Part shown: piece by piece, positions 58 to 35,776 of the stretch
Layout: each line of letters starts with the position of its first letter
How positions within the stretch are numbered: position 1 is the stretch's first letter
IMG/VR virus record: IMGVR_UViG_3300021354_000017
Location: 1-35,776 of that record
Strand: one strand, 5' to 3'
From: a virus
Length of the DNA: 35,776 nucleotides
Notes under the pieces: model-generated
Told to the model about the DNA's origin: nothing
Seen by the model: only the letters and a program-made list of their open reading frames with translations
Database searches by the model: none
Program-made: the position numbers and the translations under genes

Positions 58-159
58 ATGTTAAAAGCAATCGAAACGCACTACAACGGGTATAGATTTA
101 GAAGTCGGTTGGAAGCTAGATGGGCGCCGGCGAACAAATCAAGCGCGGTATGGTGCTAG
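58..159 (+). pseudogene. Truncated RSRLEARW-type phage protein
   Basis: A 33-residue reading frame begins at ATG 58 behind a purine-rich stretch. Residues 5-22 read ETHYNGYRFRSRLEARWA, the hallmark start of a protein family common in phages and plasmids, whose members usually continue for more than 100 residues (typically AVFFDAL... after RSRLEARW). Here the match stops after the Trp-Ala pair and the frame closes 11 residues later at TAG. The break falls at the octamer GCGCCGGC (124-131), which is also where the amidase fragment at 26713 breaks. Most likely a remnant after deletion or recombination. Family recognition is from memory of the motif. Confidence 0.55.
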
Positions 160-10400: not shown

Positions 10401-11018
10401 ATGACAGTAGCAATTGACTACAAAAACGCTAAAGGTTGGCTAACGAGTGAAGAAACTGAGTGGTTATTCCAAGCCGCTCAGTCTTTACCAGATAACGCAA
10501 CCATCCTGAATATCGGGGTTGAGTATGGCAAATCTTTAGCTTGCTTACGTGCGGGCAACCTCACCTCTAGGATAATCGGTGTGGACTTGGACATAAATAA
10601 GGTGCTTGGAAACGGGTATGACTGTGCGTTAGTGCAAATTGACAGCGCGTTATATTTCGAGGCTTGGCACGACCCGATTGATTTAATCTTTGTTGACGGT
10701 GACCACGGCTATAACGGAGTAATGCTTGATAGCCGCTTTGCACAGTGGCTACCCGTTGGCGGGGTAATCGCTTTTCAGGACTGTTTTGACTGGGAGGATT
10801 ACACCAAAATCCACGCGCTATGTCCGGGTGTGAATGTAGCGGTGCAGGATTGGTTTGACGCGCATAGGTTTGAATTTGATGAGCTTGAGAGTGTAGGCAC
10901 AACAAGAATATCCAGGAGAGTTTCTAATGTCGTTGCCGAAAGTAGCGTACTTAATCCCGACATTCAACCGGGGCGAGTTGTTAGCAAACAACCTGCGAAG
11001 GCTAAGACAAAACGTTAA
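10401..11018 (+). CDS. Class I SAM-dependent methyltransferase
   Basis: 205 residues. GWLTSEETEWLFQAAQSLP leads into the SAM-binding strand ATILNIGVEYGKS (motif I variant, about residue 34). The acidic end of strand 2 is RIIGVDLD, DLIFVDGDHGYNGVMLD (about 93-109) is the strand-4 motif, and PVGGVIAFQDCF follows. This is the Methyltransf_24 pattern found beside glycosyltransferases in surface-sugar clusters. A likely role is methylation of a sugar added to the virion; other small-molecule substrates are possible. Its last 92 bases overlap the next gene, which has its own AGGAG site. Confidence 0.8.
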   Translation: MTVAIDYKNAKGWLTSEETEWLFQAAQSLPDNATILNIGVEYGKSLACLRAGNLTSRIIGVDLDINKVLGNGYDCALVQIDSALYFEAWHDPIDLIFVDGDHGYNGVMLDSRFAQWLPVGGVIAFQDCFDWEDYTKIHALCPGVNVAVQDWFDAHRFEFDELESVGTTRISRRVSNVVAESSVLNPDIQPGRVVSKQPAKAKTKR

Positions 11019-11604
11019 ATACGCAGGGGAAATTGTTCTATTCGTTGGTGATGATAGCGATGACGATTCGCTGGCTTTTGATGCAAACGATTCTCCTTTT
11101 CCGATTTTTTACAAAAGAAACAAACCGCGCTTAGGCTTAGGCGCAAACCTGAACTACTTGATTGACGAGGCAAAACGGCAAGGCTTTACGATAGCGATGC
11201 AGTCAGATGACGACCATGTACTGCTTAGACCCTTAGACCTAACACCGCACGTTGAAAGACTGGAAAAGGAAACGGCTTGGATTCGTTTGATGGGAGTTGG
11301 GTCACACAAGCTAAAAGCAAATCTGGATGAAACATATTGGCGCGTGAACTGGCATAGTGACGAATTGTACATCACGTCCAACCGGGCGCATATCAAGTCG
11401 CTAAAGTGGCATGACATTTACGGCTATTACCCGGAGGGTTTAAAGCTTGGCGGTACAGAAGATGGCTTTTGCCACTTGAATATTGACTACGCGAGGTCAC
11501 AAATAGAAGCGGGGCGCATAGTCCCACAGGTGTTAATCCCACTAAGTCACGATGACACGGCGTTCTCGGAAAGCGGTCATAGTTTGCAGTTGCAAGGCTA
11601 CTAA
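10927..11604 (+). CDS. GT2-type (GT-A fold) glycosyltransferase
   Basis: 225 residues. VAYLIPTFNRGELLANNLRRL is the classic N-terminal nucleotide-sugar binding strand and helix. DDSDDDS (about residue 42) follows, and QSDDDHVLL (about 94-102) holds the acidic DxD-like metal site. AGGAG lies eight bases before the ATG, inside the methyltransferase gene. It probably adds one sugar to a phage structural protein; a host-surface target cannot be excluded. Confidence 0.82.
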   Translation: MSLPKVAYLIPTFNRGELLANNLRRLRQNVKYAGEIVLFVGDDSDDDSLAFDANDSPFPIFYKRNKPRLGLGANLNYLIDEAKRQGFTIAMQSDDDHVLLRPLDLTPHVERLEKETAWIRLMGVGSHKLKANLDETYWRVNWHSDELYITSNRAHIKSLKWHDIYGYYPEGLKLGGTEDGFCHLNIDYARSQIEAGRIVPQVLIPLSHDDTAFSESGHSLQLQGY

Positions 11605-14165
11605 TGAAACTATACCTAACCCCTTCGCCTGAACAGGCGAATACCAACAACGGAATAGGGCAGATTATCAGGGCGCAACATAAATACTTGCCAGAGTTTG
11701 GTATTGAGCTTGTGGATAGCCTTGATAAAGCTGACCTAACCGCTTGCCATGTGCAAGGGGTTAATCTGCCTGAAGTTGGCGTTCAGCACATAGCCGGGCT
11801 TGAGTGGGATGGGGATGGTATATCAGGTTACACCTTGCAGCATAGTGCGGTTAACCGTGCGATTATTGACACCGCTAAAAGAGCAACCTTCGTGACCGTA
11901 CCGAGCGCGTGGGTAGCAATGCCTTTTCAGCGCGATATGCGTTTCACGCCCAAAGTCATAGGTCACGGTATAGAACTTGACGAATGGAAACCGTTACCGG
12001 AAAACGAGCGCAAGGGTTACATCTTGTGGAACAAAAACCGCATAGATGTTTCTTGCCCGGTAGAACCAGCGTTGCAACTGGCGCGTAGAAAGCTTCCAGT
12101 TGTTTCAACTTTTGGTGACAGTTCGATTATGCAGGTAATCGGGCTAGTCAGCTTTGAGCAAATGCGCGAGTACGTAAAACGCGCCAGCATCTATTTAGCT
12201 ACTACCAAAGAAACATTTGGCATTGGCACGCTTGAGGCAATGGCAGCGGGCGTACCGGTACTTGGGTATAGACACGGTGGCACGGCTGATTTAATCGAAC
12301 ATAAAGTCACTGGCTACTTAGTAGAACCGGGGGACATTGCGGGGCTAGTCGAGGGCTACGCTTGGATTATGGTTAATTGGCAAGCGGTCAGTCAGGCTTG
12401 TATTCAAAAAGCGCAATCTTATTCGTGGGAATCCATAATCGGTAAGTATGCAGAGCTTTATAAAGCGGCGTTAATCGAGAAGAACCGCGCAAAGACTACC
12501 GCAATAATCATCACGAATTACAACTATGAAAAATATCTTAAGGACTCAATTGAATCTGCTATCAATCAAACAGAACGATGCGAAGTCGTGGTTGTGGATG
12601 ATTGCAGCACTGATAATAGTGCAAGTATTCTTGACCATTACGAAAAAGCTGGCTATATCAAAGTTATTCACCAACCCAAGAACTTGGGAGTGGCATTTGC
12701 TAGAAACGCGGGAATAGCCTCAGTCAAATTGGACTATATTATTTGCTTAGATGCTGACGACTGGCTACACCCTGAGTATGTCGCTACCCTTAAGCCACAT
12801 TTTGACCGCGATAAATCTTTAGGTATTGGTTATTCCGGATTGATGATGCATTTTGAAAACGGAGATAGCGCGTTAAGTAATTTCCCGCCAGAATACAATT
12901 TCGAGAATATGATTATCGTCAGCAATCCGCCTTCCAACTGCGTACCTAGCGCGGCAATGTTTAGGCGTGATATGTGGTTAAGGTCTGGTGGCTATAGACA
13001 GGAACACGCGCCAGCAGAAGATGCAGAGTTTTGGGTACGCGGCGCGAGTATTGGATTTTATGGCAAGCGGGTAACTCAAGAACCGATGTTTAACTACCGC
13101 TTGCATGGAGGTAGCCACAGCCGGGTAAAGCAGTACAAACCGATAGACCGTTGGCATCCGTTCATGCGCGACAAGATATATCCCATTGGCGCACCAACCC
13201 TAAACCAAGCTCTTGTACACAGCTACAGCAAGCCCGTAATTAGCGTAATTATTCCGGTTGGCAAAGGGCATATCAAATACTTGCCCGAGGCAATCAATAG
13301 CGTAGTTGCTCAGTCATTTCGCGAATGGGAAGTCTTAGTCATAAACGATAGTGGCGAGAAAGTAGACCTGCCAGAATACCCGTTTATCCAGCTTTACCAG
13401 ACTAAGAAAAAGACAAGCGGGGCAGCTATAGCGCGTCAAATCGGACTAGAAAACGCAAAAGGTAATCTAGTATTATATCTCGACGCAGACGACATCTTAC
13501 ACCCTGACGCTTTGCTCAAGATGTTGCGGCTATACGCAAAAGCGGGTGGGCGTTATGTCTATACCGACTGGGTAGCCAGCGACACAAATCAGATTATAGC
13601 TTGCCTTGATTACTCTCCTGAATTGGTAGTTGAAAAAAGGGGTATTCACGCGGTAACAGTTTTGATGGCACGTGATGAGGCTTTACGGGTTGGGTGGGAT
13701 AAATCAAAAGATTTACCCGCGTGGGAAGATAACGATTATTTTATCCGGTGTGCAATAGCAGGAGTTCAAGGGGTTAGGCTACCTGAGACGCTATTTACAT
13801 ATCGAATTGAGAGTAGCACAAGAAGAATAAAAGCGGTCAATCAACCGTTAGGGGATAAATTACTAATCGAACTTGATAAATACAAGGGGGAAACAATGGC
13901 GAGTTGTTGCGGTGGTAACGCTAATCAAAATACTGCTTATGCCGAATGGGCGCAATCTATTTACGGCAAACAAGCGGCGCAAGCGCAAGGAGCAGAGTCC
14001 GGGCAAATCCAAATGCTTTATACTGGAATAAATATTGCGGCTGTGACCTACACCATAAACGGGCATCCATATGTAGTAGGCGATAACGATAACGAACGTT
14101 ACGTATGGGCGTACCCGCAGGATGTAGATAAACTCTTGCAACTTGGGAAGTTCCAGTTAGCGTGA
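11604..14165 (+). CDS. Three-domain glycosyltransferase fusion (GT4-GT2-GT2)
   Basis: 853 residues starting at an A-base overlap with the previous stop. Residues 1-285 form a GT-B type GT4 domain with ETFGIGTLEAMAAGVPVLGY and HGGTADLIEH, the donor-binding E-x7-E region. Residues 290-525 form a GT2 domain (AIIITNYNYEKYL, VVVDDCSTDN, CLDADDWL). Residues 541-760 form a second GT2 domain (ISVIIPVGKGH, YLDADDILHP near 624). Residues 765-853 are unlike any transferase and correspond to a nested gene. One polypeptide could build a short glycan by three successive transfers. Its position between capsid and tail genes suggests the acceptor is a virion protein, as known for some mycobacteriophages. Confidence 0.85.
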   Translation: MKLYLTPSPEQANTNNGIGQIIRAQHKYLPEFGIELVDSLDKADLTACHVQGVNLPEVGVQHIAGLEWDGDGISGYTLQHSAVNRAIIDTAKRATFVTVPSAWVAMPFQRDMRFTPKVIGHGIELDEWKPLPENERKGYILWNKNRIDVSCPVEPALQLARRKLPVVSTFGDSSIMQVIGLVSFEQMREYVKRASIYLATTKETFGIGTLEAMAAGVPVLGYRHGGTADLIEHKVTGYLVEPGDIAGLVEGYAWIMVNWQAVSQACIQKAQSYSWESIIGKYAELYKAALIEKNRAKTTAIIITNYNYEKYLKDSIESAINQTERCEVVVVDDCSTDNSASILDHYEKAGYIKVIHQPKNLGVAFARNAGIASVKLDYIICLDADDWLHPEYVATLKPHFDRDKSLGIGYSGLMMHFENGDSALSNFPPEYNFENMIIVSNPPSNCVPSAAMFRRDMWLRSGGYRQEHAPAEDAEFWVRGASIGFYGKRVTQEPMFNYRLHGGSHSRVKQYKPIDRWHPFMRDKIYPIGAPTLNQALVHSYSKPVISVIIPVGKGHIKYLPEAINSVVAQSFREWEVLVINDSGEKVDLPEYPFIQLYQTKKKTSGAAIARQIGLENAKGNLVLYLDADDILHPDALLKMLRLYAKAGGRYVYTDWVASDTNQIIACLDYSPELVVEKRGIHAVTVLMARDEALRVGWDKSKDLPAWEDNDYFIRCAIAGVQGVRLPETLFTYRIESSTRRIKAVNQPLGDKLLIELDKYKGETMASCCGGNANQNTAYAEWAQSIYGKQAAQAQGAESGQIQMLYTGINIAAVTYTINGHPYVVGDNDNERYVWAYPQDVDKLLQLGKFQLA
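13896..14165 (+). CDS. Nested in-frame gene: 89-residue structural-type protein
   Basis: ATG 13896 is in frame inside the glycosyltransferase gene and is preceded by AAGGGGGA at 13884-13891, a stronger ribosome site than many in this genome. The product starts MASCCGGNANQN and ends with a small beta-rich module (YTINGHPYVVGDNDNERYVW, then PQDVDKLLQLGKFQLA) resembling short head or connector-region phage proteins that are normally separate genes. It could be made alone from the internal start and also as the tail of the transferase. Alternatively an ancestral stop codon was lost. Confidence 0.55.
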   Translation: MASCCGGNANQNTAYAEWAQSIYGKQAAQAQGAESGQIQMLYTGINIAAVTYTINGHPYVVGDNDNERYVWAYPQDVDKLLQLGKFQLA

Positions 14166-26036: not shown

Positions 26037-26414
26037 ATGGACATTTTTAAGCTCCTCTTTACCGATAGTGCCGATTTTGCTCAATTCCTGTTCGGCGCGA
26101 TTGGCGGGTGTCTTGGAGAGTTGGTGAGGAATAGCCGCAATGGGCAGCAAGGTTGGAAGAAGATAATATTTAATATCGTGGTGTGGACACTATGTGGAGC
26201 GTTTTTCTCGCTTGCCGTAGATTTGGTGAGTAGCCAAGCTTTTTTCGCAGGTATGTTTGCCCCACTGGTATACGAAGCGTTCGATAAACTTGCGCCGAGC
26301 TTTATCGGCAAAATAACCACAATGTTTGGAGTAAAAACAAATGGAAACAGTATTGCCGCTAATAGCAATGTTTCTGTTGGCGGGGATATTAGCCAGCAAG
26401 CGGACGGTAAATAG
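26037..26414 (+). CDS. Holin-like membrane protein
   Basis: 125 residues, ATG one base after the preceding stop. The N-terminal half has hydrophobic segments (about 15-28 and 42-66) with an NSRNGQQGWKK basic turn between them. A third stretch (AFFAGMFAPLVYEAFDKLA) may be membrane associated. The C-terminal tail is polar and Asn/Ser-rich. Its position just before the endolysin and after the tail genes supports a holin. It shares 74 bases with the next membrane gene in another frame, an arrangement seen for holin and antiholin pairs. Confidence 0.6.
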   Translation: MDIFKLLFTDSADFAQFLFGAIGGCLGELVRNSRNGQQGWKKIIFNIVVWTLCGAFFSLAVDLVSSQAFFAGMFAPLVYEAFDKLAPSFIGKITTMFGVKTNGNSIAANSNVSVGGDISQQADGK

Positions 26415-26643
26415 ATTCACCGCTATATCTCTACTGCTTGTACTGGCTGTGAGTTCGGTCAGGCAATTTGCAGCATCGCAAGGTGACGTTGGCTTAGTGG
26501 ATTTGATACACTCGTCTTATATACGCATCCCGATGTATTGCGTGCTGATAACCGCCCTGCTAGTGGAAATGGCGCGTGAACCTGGTCGCGTTTTTCCTCG
26601 TAAAGCATTACGCACGAAAGACATGAAAGACATGAATATATGA
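26341..26643 (+). CDS. Second small membrane protein (antiholin or spanin-like candidate)
   Basis: 100 residues, ATG 26341 inside the end of the holin-like gene. Three hydrophobic segments: METVLPLIAMFLLAGILA (1-18), FTAISLLLVLAVSSV (about 26-40) and IPMYCVLITALLVEM (about 63-77), then a basic tail KALRTKDMKDMNI. It may modulate lysis timing. Out-of-frame overlap with the gene before and ATGA with the next frame suggest tight coupling. Confidence 0.6.
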   Translation: METVLPLIAMFLLAGILASKRTVNRFTAISLLLVLAVSSVRQFAASQGDVGLVDLIHSSYIRIPMYCVLITALLVEMAREPGRVFPRKALRTKDMKDMNI

Positions 26644-26720
26644 GCGCGGCAGTATTTAATTGGATGACTACCCACCAAGCCGAGATTGGCGGTTGGCTTA
26701 GCGGTGGTGGCAATGCTTGA
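26640..26720 (+). CDS. Possible 26-residue microprotein
   Basis: ATG 26640 overlaps the previous TGA and the frame ends 8 bases into the endolysin remnant. The product has one Trp-rich amphipathic stretch (FNWMTTHQAEIGGWLSGGG). It may be a translational coupler to the endolysin and not a functional protein. Confidence 0.3.
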   Translation: MSAAVFNWMTTHQAEIGGWLSGGGNA

Positions 26721-26814
26721 GGTTGACTACACGCACGTAAGCCCTAATTTTTGGATAGATTCTCACCAACCGGAATTGATTTGTCTGCATGGTACGGCAG
26801 GGAGCGCCGGCTAG
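26713..26814 (+). pseudogene. N-acetylmuramoyl-L-alanine amidase, truncated N-terminus
   Basis: 33 residues before TAG. VSPNFWIDSHQPELICLHGT (9-28) is the start of Amidase_2 endolysins, where the LHGTAGS histidine is a zinc ligand; family members continue for at least 120 more residues (SAHYLI, and later His and Cys or Asp ligands). None of that follows. The frame closes at GCC GGC TAG, in the octamer GCGCCGGC (26804-26811). This is the only lysin-like sequence in the window, so lysis by a phage-encoded amidase looks disabled unless the gene is reassembled or supplied elsewhere. Confidence 0.7.
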
Positions 26815-26815
26815 G

Positions 26816-26846
26816 TATACCACCCGCTGGGTGCGTCAGTGGTATA
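26816..26846. other. Nested hairpins at the left edge of the inserted segment
   Basis: TATACCAC (26816-26823) pairs with GTGGTATA (26839-26846); within it, CACCC-GCT-GGGTG (26821-26833) can form a competing hairpin. It begins two bases after the premature stop of the amidase, so it may mark the end of an inserted element. Confidence 0.5.
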
Positions 26847-26883
26847 GTGTTATTTATAAAGGTGCAAGCCCCCCACCAGGCAG

Positions 26884-26950
26884 TTGCGTCACTACTTTTT
26901 ACTTGCTTGTATATATAGAAAAGTAGTGACGCAATAGTAGTGACGCAATA
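26884..26950. repeat. Inverted plus tandem repeats TAGTGACGCAA (operator or origin-like)
   Basis: TTGCGTCACTACTTTT (26884-26899) is the exact inverted complement of 26919-26934. GTAGTGACGCAATA then repeats in tandem at 26923-26936 and 26937-26950, so the core TAGTGACGCAA occurs three times in two orientations around an AT-rich TATATATAG spacer. No gene lies in this 270-base stretch (26815-27084). The structure could be a hairpin terminator for the minus-strand gene, an operator, or a replication signal. Confidence 0.6.
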
Positions 26951-27060
26951 CTAGTGCTTCTTAGCTTTGCGCTTACTTTGGTTGCTTGGGGTCCCGGCAT
27001 CTCGCCGGCTCTTAATGCAATGTTCACACAACCTTAACGCAATCTTAACTATGTCCACCA

Positions 27061-27081
27061 GGTGCAAAATAACCTTGCACC
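27061..27081 (-). terminator. Hairpin after the minus-strand 132-residue gene
   Basis: GGTGCAA (27061-27067) pairs with TTGCACC (27075-27081), four bases beyond the minus-strand stop at 27085. There is no clear T run on the minus strand, so termination may be weak or Rho-dependent. Confidence 0.4.
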
Positions 27082-27084
27082 CAG

Positions 27085-27483
27085 CTACCGGGACATCATG
27101 TAGGTTAGCAATGCGGAGATGGCATCCTCAAGCAACATGCCCTCCACATCCACCTGCTGCATTGCATCAGCAATCTCACCCTTCGAGTAACCCAACTTCC
27201 TAAGCACCCCGTTGAGGGCAGGGGTATACTTAGTGTCCTGCACCTTGCTAGCAGTCTCCTGTTGCTTGAGCTGTTTAGCAGTTAGTGGCACTGCATTTAG
27301 GTCAATGGCTTCACTACTACCCACTACAAGGGGAAACTCCCACGTTACCACACCATGTATTGAGTCTGCCCAAATCTTAATTACATCGGGCTTAGCCCTA
27401 CTTATAAATAGTATGGTATTAACATCCGAGGGTTCAAATGGGGTATCTCTTTGTCCCCAAGCTAACCGGGTCTCATCACACAT
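27085..27483 (-). CDS. Hypothetical protein with RuvA C-terminal/UBA-like helices
   Basis: 132 residues, ATG at 27483 with AAGGAG seven bases upstream on the minus strand. The N-terminal ~70 residues are beta-rich (VNTILFISRAKPDVIKIWAD, GVVTWEFPLVVG). After a Gln/Lys linker the end reads ALNGVLRKLGYSKGEIADAM then EGMLLEDAISALLTYM, a three-helix pattern like RuvA domain III, which binds the RuvB motor. It is the main gene of a minus-strand cassette sitting between the amidase fragments. No clear family; no nuclease or transposase motifs. Confidence 0.6.
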   Translation of the reverse strand: MCDETRLAWGQRDTPFEPSDVNTILFISRAKPDVIKIWADSIHGVVTWEFPLVVGSSEAIDLNAVPLTAKQLKQQETASKVQDTKYTPALNGVLRKLGYSKGEIADAMQQVDVEGMLLEDAISALLTYMMSR

Positions 27484-27501
27484 TTTACTTCTCCTTATTA
27501 T

Positions 27502-27606
27502 TCAGCACTTGTAGTGGAGGTGCAACTTAACACCATCCACCTCCAGTCTGATGTGCCGGGCGTGACCCTCCTGCACTATCCTCTCACACTTATCACAAAC
27601 CCACAT
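27502..27606 (-). CDS. 34-residue Cys/His miniprotein
   Basis: ATG at 27606 on the minus strand with GGGAGG about nine bases upstream; it ends 18 bases before the start of the 132-residue gene, so the two form an operon. The sequence begins MWVCDKCERIVQEGHARHI and ends LHLHYKC: a CxxC knuckle plus His and Cys residues near the end that could close a zinc site. No family recognised. Confidence 0.55.
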   Translation of the reverse strand: MWVCDKCERIVQEGHARHIRLEVDGVKLHLHYKC

Positions 27607-27632
27607 AGTTGCATACCTCCCTTCCATTATAT

Positions 27633-27647
27633 GGGGCAAGACGCCCC
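27633..27647. other. Hairpin near the right edge of the inserted segment
   Basis: GGGGC-AAGAC-GCCCC lies just before the open frame of the C-terminal fragment at 27650 and mirrors the hairpin at 26821-26833. It may be one end of the element or the terminus of an overlapping transcript. Confidence 0.4.
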
Positions 27648-27649
27648 AC

Positions 27650-27805
27650 GTCCATAGTCATTTAGTCACCGGGCGCTGGCTTTACTATTCGCCCAACTCA
27701 GGGGCAAAGGGCAGTCAGATTAGCTTTGCAACGGGTAAATCTGGTAATATCTATGTTGCGTACGAAGCGGAGCAATGGAAGGTGCGGGTTTTTAACTCCA
27801 GCTAA
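27650..27805 (+). pseudogene. Orphan C-terminal fragment, probably of the endolysin
   Basis: An open plus-strand frame with no start signal encodes a beta-rich end: GRWLYYSPNSGAKGSQ, ISFATGKSGNIYVAYEAEQ, WKVRVFNSS, then TAA. The composition and Trp/Tyr/Gly pattern suit the last part of a lytic enzyme or tail protein, and no other gene nearby lacks its end. With the truncated amidase 840 bases upstream on the same strand, the simplest reading is one gene split by an insertion plus deletion of the middle. Frame is open further upstream, but those codons overlap the minus-strand miniprotein. Confidence 0.45.
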
Positions 27806-27893: not shown

Positions 27894-27925
27894 AAAAAAG
27901 ACTCCCCGCAACGAGAGTCTTTTTT
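27894..27925 (-). terminator. Bidirectional terminator
   Basis: AAAAAAGACTC (27894-27904) pairs with GAGTCTTTTTT (27915-27925) around a ten-base loop, giving T runs on both strands. It ends the minus-strand operon (stop at 27930) and any plus-strand read-through from the endolysin region. The gap 27806-27893 shows no gene. Confidence 0.85.
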
Positions 27926-27929
27926 CTTA

Positions 27930-28124
27930 TCATTTATAGACGGCGCTCATTATCTTGAGCCGCCGCTTCCAGAAAGCCTGCGCTTCTACTGGCAGGTCTG
28001 GGCGATTGGCGAGAGACTCAACAGTTCTGATTACCGCGTTTATCCCGCATATCATAGCGGGATTCTCGCCCCGAAGGGCTTTTAGTTCCGCTCTGATTTT
28101 AGCGGCTTGTGTTGGCTTTCCCAT
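27930..28124 (-). CDS. Hypothetical protein, minus operon gene 3
   Basis: 64 residues, ATG with AGGAG six bases upstream, overlapping the end of the preceding gene by 43 bases. Basic and helical, with ICGINAVIRTVESLANRPDL and VEAQAFWKRRLKIM. No family recognised. Confidence 0.6.
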   Translation of the reverse strand: MGKPTQAAKIRAELKALRGENPAMICGINAVIRTVESLANRPDLPVEAQAFWKRRLKIMSAVYK

Positions 28125-28330
28125 TGGTATCTCCTCATTTTTATCCTGCCGATGAGTTCGGTTATCTCATCGTTCAGGTTCTCGTATGCGGCTGTTAACT
28201 CGCCATACACAGCCATTGGTACGTCTTTGGTCTCCATTGCAGACCAATGCTCACCAATGACTATACGGGCTTCCTCAAGCCCTCGTATGCGCCCTTCCAA
28301 GAGGGCGCGTTCTAGTTCTACTGTCTCCAC
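28082..28330 (-). CDS. Hypothetical protein, minus operon gene 2
   Basis: 82 residues. GTG at 28330 is preferred because GGAGAG precedes it by five bases and it starts two bases after the previous stop; GTG 28357 would overlap that gene. Mostly helical and charged (TVELERALLEGRIRGLEEA; ENLNDEITELIGRIKMRRYQ), suggesting a coiled coil. No family recognised. Confidence 0.6.
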   Translation of the reverse strand: METVELERALLEGRIRGLEEARIVIGEHWSAMETKDVPMAVYGELTAAYENLNDEITELIGRIKMRRYQWESQHKPLKSERN

Positions 28331-28332
28331 TG

Positions 28333-28545
28333 CTACTCTCCGGTATGGCGCGACCACGCCATATCGTCATCAAGTATTTCCTGCAAGTAGCGATAGGTCT
28401 GCTCGTCAATCGCTATCTCGCATTCAACTATCAGCTTGGACAGCAACTCTTGTTGGGTAGTAGTACCCTCAAGTTCCGACATCCATTTCAGGAGGCGGTC
28501 TATTTCCGCGTCCAGCTCGCGGTCACTCAGTGTATCCAATGTCAT
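28333..28545 (-). CDS. Hypothetical acidic helical protein, minus operon gene 1
   Basis: 70 residues, ATG at 28545 with AAGGAAA upstream. Acidic and helical (LSDRELDAEIDRLLKWMSEL; AIDEQTYRYLQEILDDD). The first gene of a three-gene minus operon (28545 to 27930) whose start lies back to back with the ribbon-helix-helix gene on the plus strand; the three are probably controlled from the region 28546-28690. Small acidic helical proteins of phages are often host-takeover or anti-repressor factors, but nothing here identifies this one. Confidence 0.6.
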   Translation of the reverse strand: MTLDTLSDRELDAEIDRLLKWMSELEGTTTQQELLSKLIVECEIAIDEQTYRYLQEILDDDMAWSRHTGE

Positions 28546-29539: not shown

Positions 29540-29668
29540 TTGGAAGACAACAGATGCGGTTGTGGTTGCGGTAAATCAATGTTTGGAAAACGGGAAAATG
29601 CGGATTACTTTAGCGCGGCGTGTCGGGTTAGGGCAAGTCGCGAAAGACGGCAAATTGTAAAAATATGA
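29540..29668 (+). CDS. Zinc-ribbon peptide or -1 frameshift extension of the membrane protein
   Basis: The frame contains RCGCGCGKSMFGKRENADYF then SAACRVRASRERR, a C-x-C-x-CGK ... SAACR ending common at the C-terminus of plasmid and phage replication or zinc-ribbon proteins. The stop overlaps the next start as ATGA, which supports translation. No good start exists: TTG 29540 and ATG 29579 lack ribosome sites, while the frame is open back to about 29429, through the A6 run (29484-29489) at the end of the membrane gene. A -1 shift there, or an uncorrected homopolymer indel in the sequence, would join the two. Confidence 0.5.
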   Translation: MEDNRCGCGCGKSMFGKRENADYFSAACRVRASRERRQIVKI

Positions 29669-29973
29669 TACGACTAGAAACAGTATTGGCGAAACTCTTT
29701 CGGGGCGTATCATACGCCCTGCTGATAAATGGCAAGTGGTGCGGATTAGCGGTTGAGGACATCTGGGCTTATATCGTGAGCAAAGGTATTGAGTACAACC
29801 GTGCTTACGACAAGTTGACCGAGTTGGGCGTGCCACTCAAGCAGCAAAGGGTGGTCAGACCACAGTCGAAAAATATCGGGGAGATATTTGTCGTGGCTCG
29901 TGTTAAAAAACCTTTTGGCTACCGTGCCATCATAAAAGATAATGTAGATTTTCAAAAATGGCAGGGGTTTTGA
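29665..29973 (+). CDS. Hypothetical protein
   Basis: 102 residues at an ATGA overlap. A mixed helical/strand protein (YALLINGKWCGLAVEDIWAY, then EIFVVARVKKPFGYRAIIKD). The helix-rich centre (AYDKLTELGVPLKQQRVV) could be a winged-helix variant, but no HTH is clear. It is the last gene before a bidirectional terminator. Confidence 0.55.
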   Translation: MIRLETVLAKLFRGVSYALLINGKWCGLAVEDIWAYIVSKGIEYNRAYDKLTELGVPLKQQRVVRPQSKNIGEIFVVARVKKPFGYRAIIKDNVDFQKWQGF

Positions 29974-33797: not shown

Positions 33798-35699
33798 ATG
33801 GGTATGAGCATGCCAGTCAAGCAATATAACAGATTCACCAAATCTAATCCCTGTCCGATTTGCACCGGTCATAAAAGCATGCCGCACGGGAATGGTGAGC
33901 GGTGTTACGGGTATATCTCAGATGACGGGCAGTTTGTACATTGCACTAGAGAGCAATACGCGGGAAATTTATCACAACATGAAAATAGTGGCACATTCGC
34001 CCATCGCTGGCACGGTAAATGCGGCTGCGGCATAACCCATAACCCGGATAACATAAGTTACTTGGAATTACGCCCGCTAGAAATCGGTAACAACGGTAAC
34101 ACTAACGGTAACAATACCACTGTTACCGATAAACCAAAGCCACAACCAATTAAATATTATGACTTCGTTGACCTTGATGGGGCTATAAGACACCAAACAA
34201 TCAGGTATGAACCAAAAGACTTCAGGCAACGTGTTCCCGCTTGTAACGGTGAGTGGGTTTGGTCGCTTGATGGCATTGAAACTGTTCTATACAAACTGCC
34301 TGAGTTGGTAGCAGCCAACTCAAACGAAACAGTCTATATAGTCGAGGGGGAGAAAGACGTTGATACCCTGCTCTCTTATGGGTTTGTAGCAACGTGCAAC
34401 CCTATGGGTGCTAAGAAGTGGAAAGATACTTATAACCAGTACCTGAAGGGGCGTAAGGTAGTTGTTATACCAGATAACGATAAACCCGGTCACGAACACG
34501 CCGCAATGGTTATTAGTAGTATCAGGTCAGTAGTTAAATCTGTAAATCTGGTAATTCTTGACGGCGGCAAAGATGTTACTGAGTGGTTTGCTAAAGGGCA
34601 TACCTATAACGAGTTTCTTAAACTAACAACTCCCAAAAAACGGTTATACACCGTTGACGAATTAGACCAAATACCAGACCCGGTATGGCTATTTGAACCT
34701 TACTTCTTCTCAAGTTCCACCGCTATGGTAATCGGGCCTTCTCAAGCCAAGAAAACATTTTTCCTGTTGGATATAGCATTGAGGTTATCAGAAACTATGC
34801 CCGTTATTTATGCAGCCGGGGAGGGTGCGCCGGGTATTAAGCGTAGGGTAAAAGGTTGGCGCAAGAGGTTTGGTATAAAACCTAAAAATTTTTATCTGTG
34901 GCCCGGCTCTATTACCCCGCAAAACCCAGAAGCTAGAGAAATATTCTTAAAAGAAATAGAACATATCAAACCAGTAATGCTTGTAATTGATACCTTAGCG
35001 CGTAATAGCGAAGGGTTAGACGAAAACAAAGCAGGGGATATACAAATATATCTTTCCGCTTGTGAACTGGTAAAAGAGGCTACAGGGGCTTGTGTGGTCA
35101 CTGTACATCATACCGGGTGGGATACCACGCGGGAAAAGGGCAGCAGTTCGATGCGTAACTGGGTAGATTCTCAAATTCATTTATCGGTTGAAGGGGATTT
35201 AACTAAAGTAACCTGCGTTAAAGCTAAAGATGAAGAACTATTCGAGCCTCGTTACATAAAGTGGGAATCTATTTTAATCGGGTATGACGAGGAACGCAAA
35301 AAGGATATTACTACCCTTGTACCAGTGTACACCAACGCTGACGACATCATACAAGAACGCCCTGCATTAAGTCATAAAATTAAACAAGTGCTTGAGGTGT
35401 TTGATAATGACCTGTTTAGAACCTCTGGCGCGGGCTGGAAGTCTGTAGCCGAGGCTTTGGGTATAGAAGCTAATGCAAGTGCTAAATCGTCACTCATAAG
35501 AACTATGGGCGGGTTAGTAAAACAGGAATATCTTAAGAAAATAAAAGAGGGAATATACACAATAACTGATAAAGGTTTTAGGGCATTAGCCCCCGAAAAG
35601 TCGGTTATTGATATGACCCCTGCATCGGTAACAACTGTAATGCAGCGAAATGTTACCGATGTTACCGATGTTACCGATTTACCAGAAAACCGATTTTGA
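33798..35699 (+). CDS. Zinc finger-TOPRIM-RepA-type primase/helicase
   Basis: 633 residues, AAGGAAACA leader. A zinc finger near the N-terminus (NPCPICTGHK, then C-x-C-G pair; about 17-95) is followed by a low-complexity Asn/Thr linker (about 96-113). TOPRIM-like part: VYIVEGEKDVDTLLSYG (about 181-197), VVVIPDNDKPGHEHA and GGKDVTEWF. RepA-type RecA-fold ATPase from about 310: GPSQAKKTFF Walker A, VIDTLARNSEG Walker B, CVVTVHHTGW sensor strand. The C-terminus is a winged helix (LIRTMGGLVKQEYLKKIKEG). It should prime and open the origin; this plan is typical of phage and plasmid Rep proteins. Iterons are encoded in its linker and its VTDVTDVTD tail. Confidence 0.85.
   Translation: MGMSMPVKQYNRFTKSNPCPICTGHKSMPHGNGERCYGYISDDGQFVHCTREQYAGNLSQHENSGTFAHRWHGKCGCGITHNPDNISYLELRPLEIGNNGNTNGNNTTVTDKPKPQPIKYYDFVDLDGAIRHQTIRYEPKDFRQRVPACNGEWVWSLDGIETVLYKLPELVAANSNETVYIVEGEKDVDTLLSYGFVATCNPMGAKKWKDTYNQYLKGRKVVVIPDNDKPGHEHAAMVISSIRSVVKSVNLVILDGGKDVTEWFAKGHTYNEFLKLTTPKKRLYTVDELDQIPDPVWLFEPYFFSSSTAMVIGPSQAKKTFFLLDIALRLSETMPVIYAAGEGAPGIKRRVKGWRKRFGIKPKNFYLWPGSITPQNPEAREIFLKEIEHIKPVMLVIDTLARNSEGLDENKAGDIQIYLSACELVKEATGACVVTVHHTGWDTTREKGSSSMRNWVDSQIHLSVEGDLTKVTCVKAKDEELFEPRYIKWESILIGYDEERKKDITTLVPVYTNADDIIQERPALSHKIKQVLEVFDNDLFRTSGAGWKSVAEALGIEANASAKSSLIRTMGGLVKQEYLKKIKEGIYTITDKGFRALAPEKSVIDMTPASVTTVMQRNVTDVTDVTDLPENRF
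34083..34130. repeat. Iterons inside the primase linker coding region
   Basis: ATCGGTAAC (34083-34091), AACGGTAAC (34092-34100), AACGGTAAC (34104-34112) and inverted GTTACCGAT (34122-34130). They encode the Asn/Gly/Thr linker. The same 9-mer recurs at the 3' end of the gene and across the window ends. Confidence 0.65.
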
Positions 35700-35776
35700 A
35701 CTCAAAAAGTAGTTAGCTATGCTAACTATCGGTAACAAATGGCATTGTTACCGTGTAGCATGATGCTAACTATCGG
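35652..35776. repeat. Iteron array and repeats at right end (probable replication origin)
   Basis: Three perfect tandem GTTACCGAT copies (35652-35678), then ATCGGTAAC (35728-35736) and GTTACCG (35747-35753). GTTAGC-TAT-GCTAAC (35712-35726) and TAGCAT-G-ATGCTA (35756-35768) are hairpins; GCTAACTATCGG occurs twice (35721-35732 and 35765-35776). With the motifs at 1-33 this makes an array of at least seven sites directly after a Rep-type gene, the usual place for an iteron origin. No DnaA box was found. Confidence 0.65.

Follow-up and report, generated by a model that had tools for sequence, protein, structure and literature searches.

How has a tailed phage come to carry only the first 33 residues of its apparent endolysin, followed by two small genes on the opposite strand? 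The window analysed here is a whole IMG/VR virus record of 35,776 bases from an uncultured phage. It encodes the gene set of a tailed siphophage, comprising TerL (PF20441), tape measure, Dit and Gp37-like minor tail proteins, along with RusA and a primase/helicase, and a terminal repeat is absent from the 35,776 bases, which makes the record an open-ended contig. The TerL has a relative with 46% identity (E 1e-101) in a Chloroflexota genome (the phylum of Thermanaerothrix daxensis, locus L086), where its neighbours are portal-, MuF-, protease- and capsid-like genes; this relationship points to Chloroflexota as the likely host. Two glycosyltransferase genes lie within the structural region of the window (10927-14165), one of them 853 aa long with a GT4 and two GT2 domains, and in L093, the Chloroflexota relative, the capsid gene is likewise followed by a glycosyltransferase-like match. 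The features of the lysis region and of the contig start are collected in Table 1.

Table 1. Features around the truncated endolysin and at the start of the contig.
Position	Strand	Feature	Basis or remark
61..126	+	Second broken gene; N-terminal remnant of a PD-(D/E)XK / Holliday-junction-resolvase-like nuclease	Homology
26037..26414	+	Putative holin-like small protein with hydrophobic stretches, late/lysis operon	ORF
26341..26643	+	Second small lysis-operon protein with hydrophobic stretches	ORF, sequence; overlaps next start (ATGA)
26641..26719	+	26-residue ORF, translationally coupled on both sides	Sequence; stop overlaps lysin ATG
26713..26814	+	Very probable 5' remnant of an Amidase_2 endolysin, 33 aa	Same SPNFW and LHGTAG as in L004 and L011
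26804..26811	+	8-mer GCGCCGGC, where lysin homology ends	Only other window copy at 124-131
26815..27084	.	Non-coding, hairpin-rich stretch of 270 bases between convergent ends, downstream of p132	Folding, coding scan
27085..27483	-	p132, 132 aa, with a C-terminal three-helix RuvA-III/UBA-like domain (predicted)	Coding signal, Pfam, AlphaFold, Foldseek
27505..27606	-	p34, zinc-ribbon-like Cys/His protein of 34 aa that opens the minus operon	Weak, below-cut-off match to DUF7569 (E 1e-4)
27626..27654	-	Promoter-like TGGACG-17-TATAAT, just upstream of p34	Sequence
27650..27805	+	Orphan open frame ending ...WKVRVFNSS and a stop, lacking a start codon	Coding-like composition
27894..27926	.	Strong bidirectional intrinsic terminator (AAAAAAAGACTC...GAGAGTCTTTTTT)	Sequence

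The lysin remnant belongs to what looks like a lysis operon, where it is preceded by two genes with hydrophobic stretches and the 26-residue ORF, each overlapping the start of the next. The product of the first can be called holin-like on just its hydrophobic stretches and position, and it had no match in Pfam or PHROG. The remnant itself reads MLEVDYTHVSPNFWIDSHQPELICLHGTAGSAG and then meets a TAG stop. When the two-motif DNA pattern SPNFW...HGTAG was used to find full-length lysins in other viral contigs, it gave two, L004 and L011, both of them Amidase_2 (PF01510; E about 1e-25). The remnant shares 12 invariant columns with these proteins at near-identical motif spacing and at the same place, the very N-terminus, and it retains the first predicted zinc-ligand histidine (in HGTAG). 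We are highly confident that the ORF is what is left of an Amidase_2 endolysin. In contrast to the two complete enzymes, however, it keeps the first 33 residues only, with the other zinc ligands and the remaining fold lost; its tblastn match to them stops at HGTAG, base 26802. The Amidase_2 profile, which was positive in 6 of 14 control genomes, matched nothing in any of the six frames of the window, and a complete domain with the remaining zinc ligands is nowhere to be found in it. The truncation and the missing amidase middle, both proposed in a preliminary description of this DNA, are thereby confirmed. Its further statement that no other lysin is visible holds for Amidase_2 domains in every frame of the window, and its reach is limited because the record is an open-ended contig with a broken gene at its start.

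The sequence that follows the remnant contains a self-contained unit on the minus strand. The two-gene operon described earlier is well supported: both genes have ribosome-binding sites (a good one, GGGAGG, for p34 and AAGGAG for p132), a promoter-like site precedes them, and the codon usage of p132 is strongly coding, at 0.25 bits/codon against a mean of 0.21 for in-frame genes and of -0.24 for out-of-frame stretches; p34 is too short for such a judgement. The promoter-like site scores 10/12, in a region where the number of such sites does not exceed that of shuffled sequences. Between its two hexamers, at the right edge of the cassette, lies an operator-like palindrome, GGGGC-GTCTT-GCCCC. 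The unit may be expressed independently. p132 probably ends in the RuvA-III-like helices previously ascribed to it, as a three-helix bundle. The last ~45 residues are weakly alike to RuvA domain III (Pfam RuvA_C, PF07499; E 0.005 and 17.7 bits, below the curated cut-off of 24), the AlphaFold model of the C-terminal third (residues 84-132) has pLDDT values mostly above 80, and Foldseek superimposes this part on 7pbm_H with an rmsd of 1.3 Å over 44 columns and a TMt of 0.77, but at E 4.9. Unlike RuvA, p132 lacks domains I and II, and its N-terminal ~85 residues are unassigned to any domain. Searches of viral contigs, phages and 400 Chloroflexota genomes gave no convincing relative of p132. We infer that p34 and p132 form a small regulatory or host-interaction pair, with the RuvA-III-like tail of p132 as a possible docking site for RuvB or some comparable partner.

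Between the two convergent ends, the hairpin-rich stretch folds better than shuffled versions of itself, with z -3.5 and -3.3 for the two strands. It contains, at 26884-26934, an inverted repeat with perfectly matching 16-nt arms, one of which recurs as a third arm at 26935-26948. Within this repeat (26880-26950) the alternative right arms are AAAAGTAGTGACGCAA and AATAGTAGTGACGCAA, so that two mutually exclusive hairpins are possible. With the inverted repeat on the left and the palindrome on the right, hairpins do lie near both cassette edges, as had been noticed before. No Rfam family matched the stretch; as candidate mobile DNA it was searched for in 331 Chloroflexota genomes, which gave only chance matches of 23-27 bases. 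Nor does a simple target-site duplication account for the edges. An imperfect copy, GCGCTGGC, exists at the right edge (27673), but the frames to either side of it do not line up, and a duplication would leave the amidase without its middle. A search for tRNA and tmRNA genes at the joint found none.

To the right of the promoter-like site the plus strand resumes with a short piece that had been taken for the C-terminus of the same lysin, the whole gene being thought split by the cassette. This part of the preliminary description is not confirmed. The piece is an open frame of coding-like composition, its 0.09 bits/codon exceeding the 95th percentile for out-of-frame stretches; the coding-like character runs from about 27670 to 27802. 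It has no significant match in phage records, Pfam or viral contigs, and none when compared with 30 Chloroflexota amidase loci and the two viral lysins. A likeness to metallophosphatases (purple-acid-phosphatase-like; 35-37% over 43 residues) was rejected, since E values of 0.001-0.01 per genome are at chance level across 400 genomes. The strong terminator just beyond is probably the end of the late operon, and a coding-like piece followed by such a terminator is what one would expect at the 3' end of the final late-operon gene, of which 27650..27805 is the probable remnant. The evidence thus supports a truncated lysin together with a probable late-gene remnant, and does not support a split lysin. 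Further along, at 29665-29973, a short protein resembles part of PAPS reductase (PHROG 2302, residues 207-264 of 381) and is possibly another gene fragment.

Based on this anatomy, we propose that the late operon (structural and lysis genes) of a Chloroflexota-type siphophage would have lost most of its endolysin gene as well as the front of its last late gene. In their place would stand the self-contained minus-strand unit, that is, the promoter with its operator-like palindrome, p34, p132 and the hairpin-rich end. Illegitimate recombination would have put, or left, this antisense accessory ("moron") unit inside the late operon, truncating the operon and giving a defective or variant genome. 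We hold this reading, as a whole, with about even confidence. The 5' remnant of the lysin, the absence of its remainder and the self-contained layout of the minus-strand unit are direct observations, whereas the order of events, in which the unit arrived by insertion and did not predate the loss of the lysin, is our inference. Searches of viral contigs and phage records gave no relative at the lysis region, and none was found in which the site is vacant or this cassette is present. The insertion with deletion envisaged in the preliminary description therefore stands on anatomy, as a truncation and a self-contained unit between two remnants. Since the phage would lack its lysin and a second gene is broken at the contig start, the record most likely describes a defective or minority genome variant instead of a fit phage that lyses its host in a new way.

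The proposed arrangement has a described counterpart. Accessory loci that lie antisense to prophage lytic genes and carry their own promoter are known, STMMW_20121 being an example (PMC7067206). The likeness extends to a small self-contained unit with a promoter-like site and a hairpin-rich end, antisense to late genes. The present unit differs in that it coincides with the loss of most of an endolysin, and its autonomous expression and function are putative. A mechanism of this already known kind, or a defective or variant copy of the genome, is most likely, rather than a new kind of system.

The broken gene at the contig start bears on a different explanation, namely that assembly or amplification produced a chimera in which the joints at 26804 and 126 link molecules that are not adjacent in the living phage, whose real lysin would be intact. 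The broken gene reads MLKAIETHYNGYRFRSRLEARWA, which shares 77-87% identity with a family of phage nucleases partly annotated as Holliday junction resolvase, and this homology ends at base 126, at the same residue in every match listed. It is followed, out of frame, by an open frame at 126-243, AGEQIKRGMVLVINSQEPSQVKLYETFYDEVLMASEFC and a stop, which looks like the C-terminal fragment of some protein and has no relative among phages; a terminator-like hairpin lies after it, around 270-305. The distance of exactly 126 bases from the first base looks like a k-1 overlap left by an assembly-graph fork at a presumed k=127. This match makes a fork between intact and altered sequence a likelier origin of the first break than a separate biological event, and it makes a variant or chimeric record more probable beforehand. 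In addition, GCGCCGGC is present only twice in the window, once at each break. For two random ±12-base windows of the genome the chance of a shared 8-mer is 0.006, a coincidence that is suggestive and, having been spotted after the fact, not compelling. The joint at 26804 is another matter, however: it lies deep within the contig, where a k-mer assembler requires reads across it, the eight shared bases are too few to mislead an assembler, and three successive coupled small ORFs run normally into the lysin remnant. On balance we regard a chimera as unlikely, though serious enough to be kept in view. At both contig ends we also observed clusters of an iteron-like repeat, GTTACCG/CGGTAAC (35623-35776 and 1-30, with another at 34081-34101), a possible replication origin which broke the assembly.

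A simple deletion would dispense with insertion altogether: the lysin would have been lost, and p34, p132 and the hairpin-rich stretch would be resident convergent early genes beyond the late operon. The GC content and codon usage of the cassette, p132 included, are equal to the phage's own, so that it may be long resident; this counts against the insertion reading. More minus-strand genes follow nearby, at 27930-28545, so that convergent early genes may be normal here, and hairpins are expected between convergent operons. Against this account stand the coding-like plus-strand remnant and the strong terminator to the right of p34, which place the minus-strand pair inside apparent late-operon territory. 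We therefore consider deletion on its own rather improbable.

The shared 8-mer could be given a more active role, with sequence-guided recombination at GCGCCGGC-type sites recurrently cutting conserved genes, here the lysin at 26804 together with the nuclease at 124, and dropping new modules there. If this were true, one rare 8-mer would mark module joints in this phage group; we think it very unlikely. A reciprocal exchange between both broken genes was rejected: in a six-frame search of the window with full-length nuclease relatives and the two lysins, only chance-level matches appeared beyond the N-terminal pieces. Least credible of all is a self-splicing intron or other removable element whose excision would restore the lysin, for although group I introns can occur in lysin genes, as in S. 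thermophilus phages (Foley et al. 2000, J Virol 74:611, as cited in PMC11878797), and here too a lysin is interrupted in a conserved catalytic codon block by sequence that is unusually structured over its first 290 nt, the window has no intron core and no Rfam intron match up to E 1, let alone at gathering score, the candidate 3' exon is unlike lysins, and no more than about 85 residues can be read from the two flanks combined, so that with most of the lysin coding sequence, including its catalytic middle, missing, splicing could not restore the enzyme. The earlier view that this is not a simple intron is upheld.

What the truncated late operon means depends on the nature of the genome that carries it. 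If the record is a variant or contains an assembly joint, it calls for caution in inferring the lysis strategy of a phage from single metagenomic contigs. If it represents a real virus, accessory genes would here be seen to replace an essential lysis gene, and a siphophage without an endolysin of its own would raise the question of how exit from the cell occurs.
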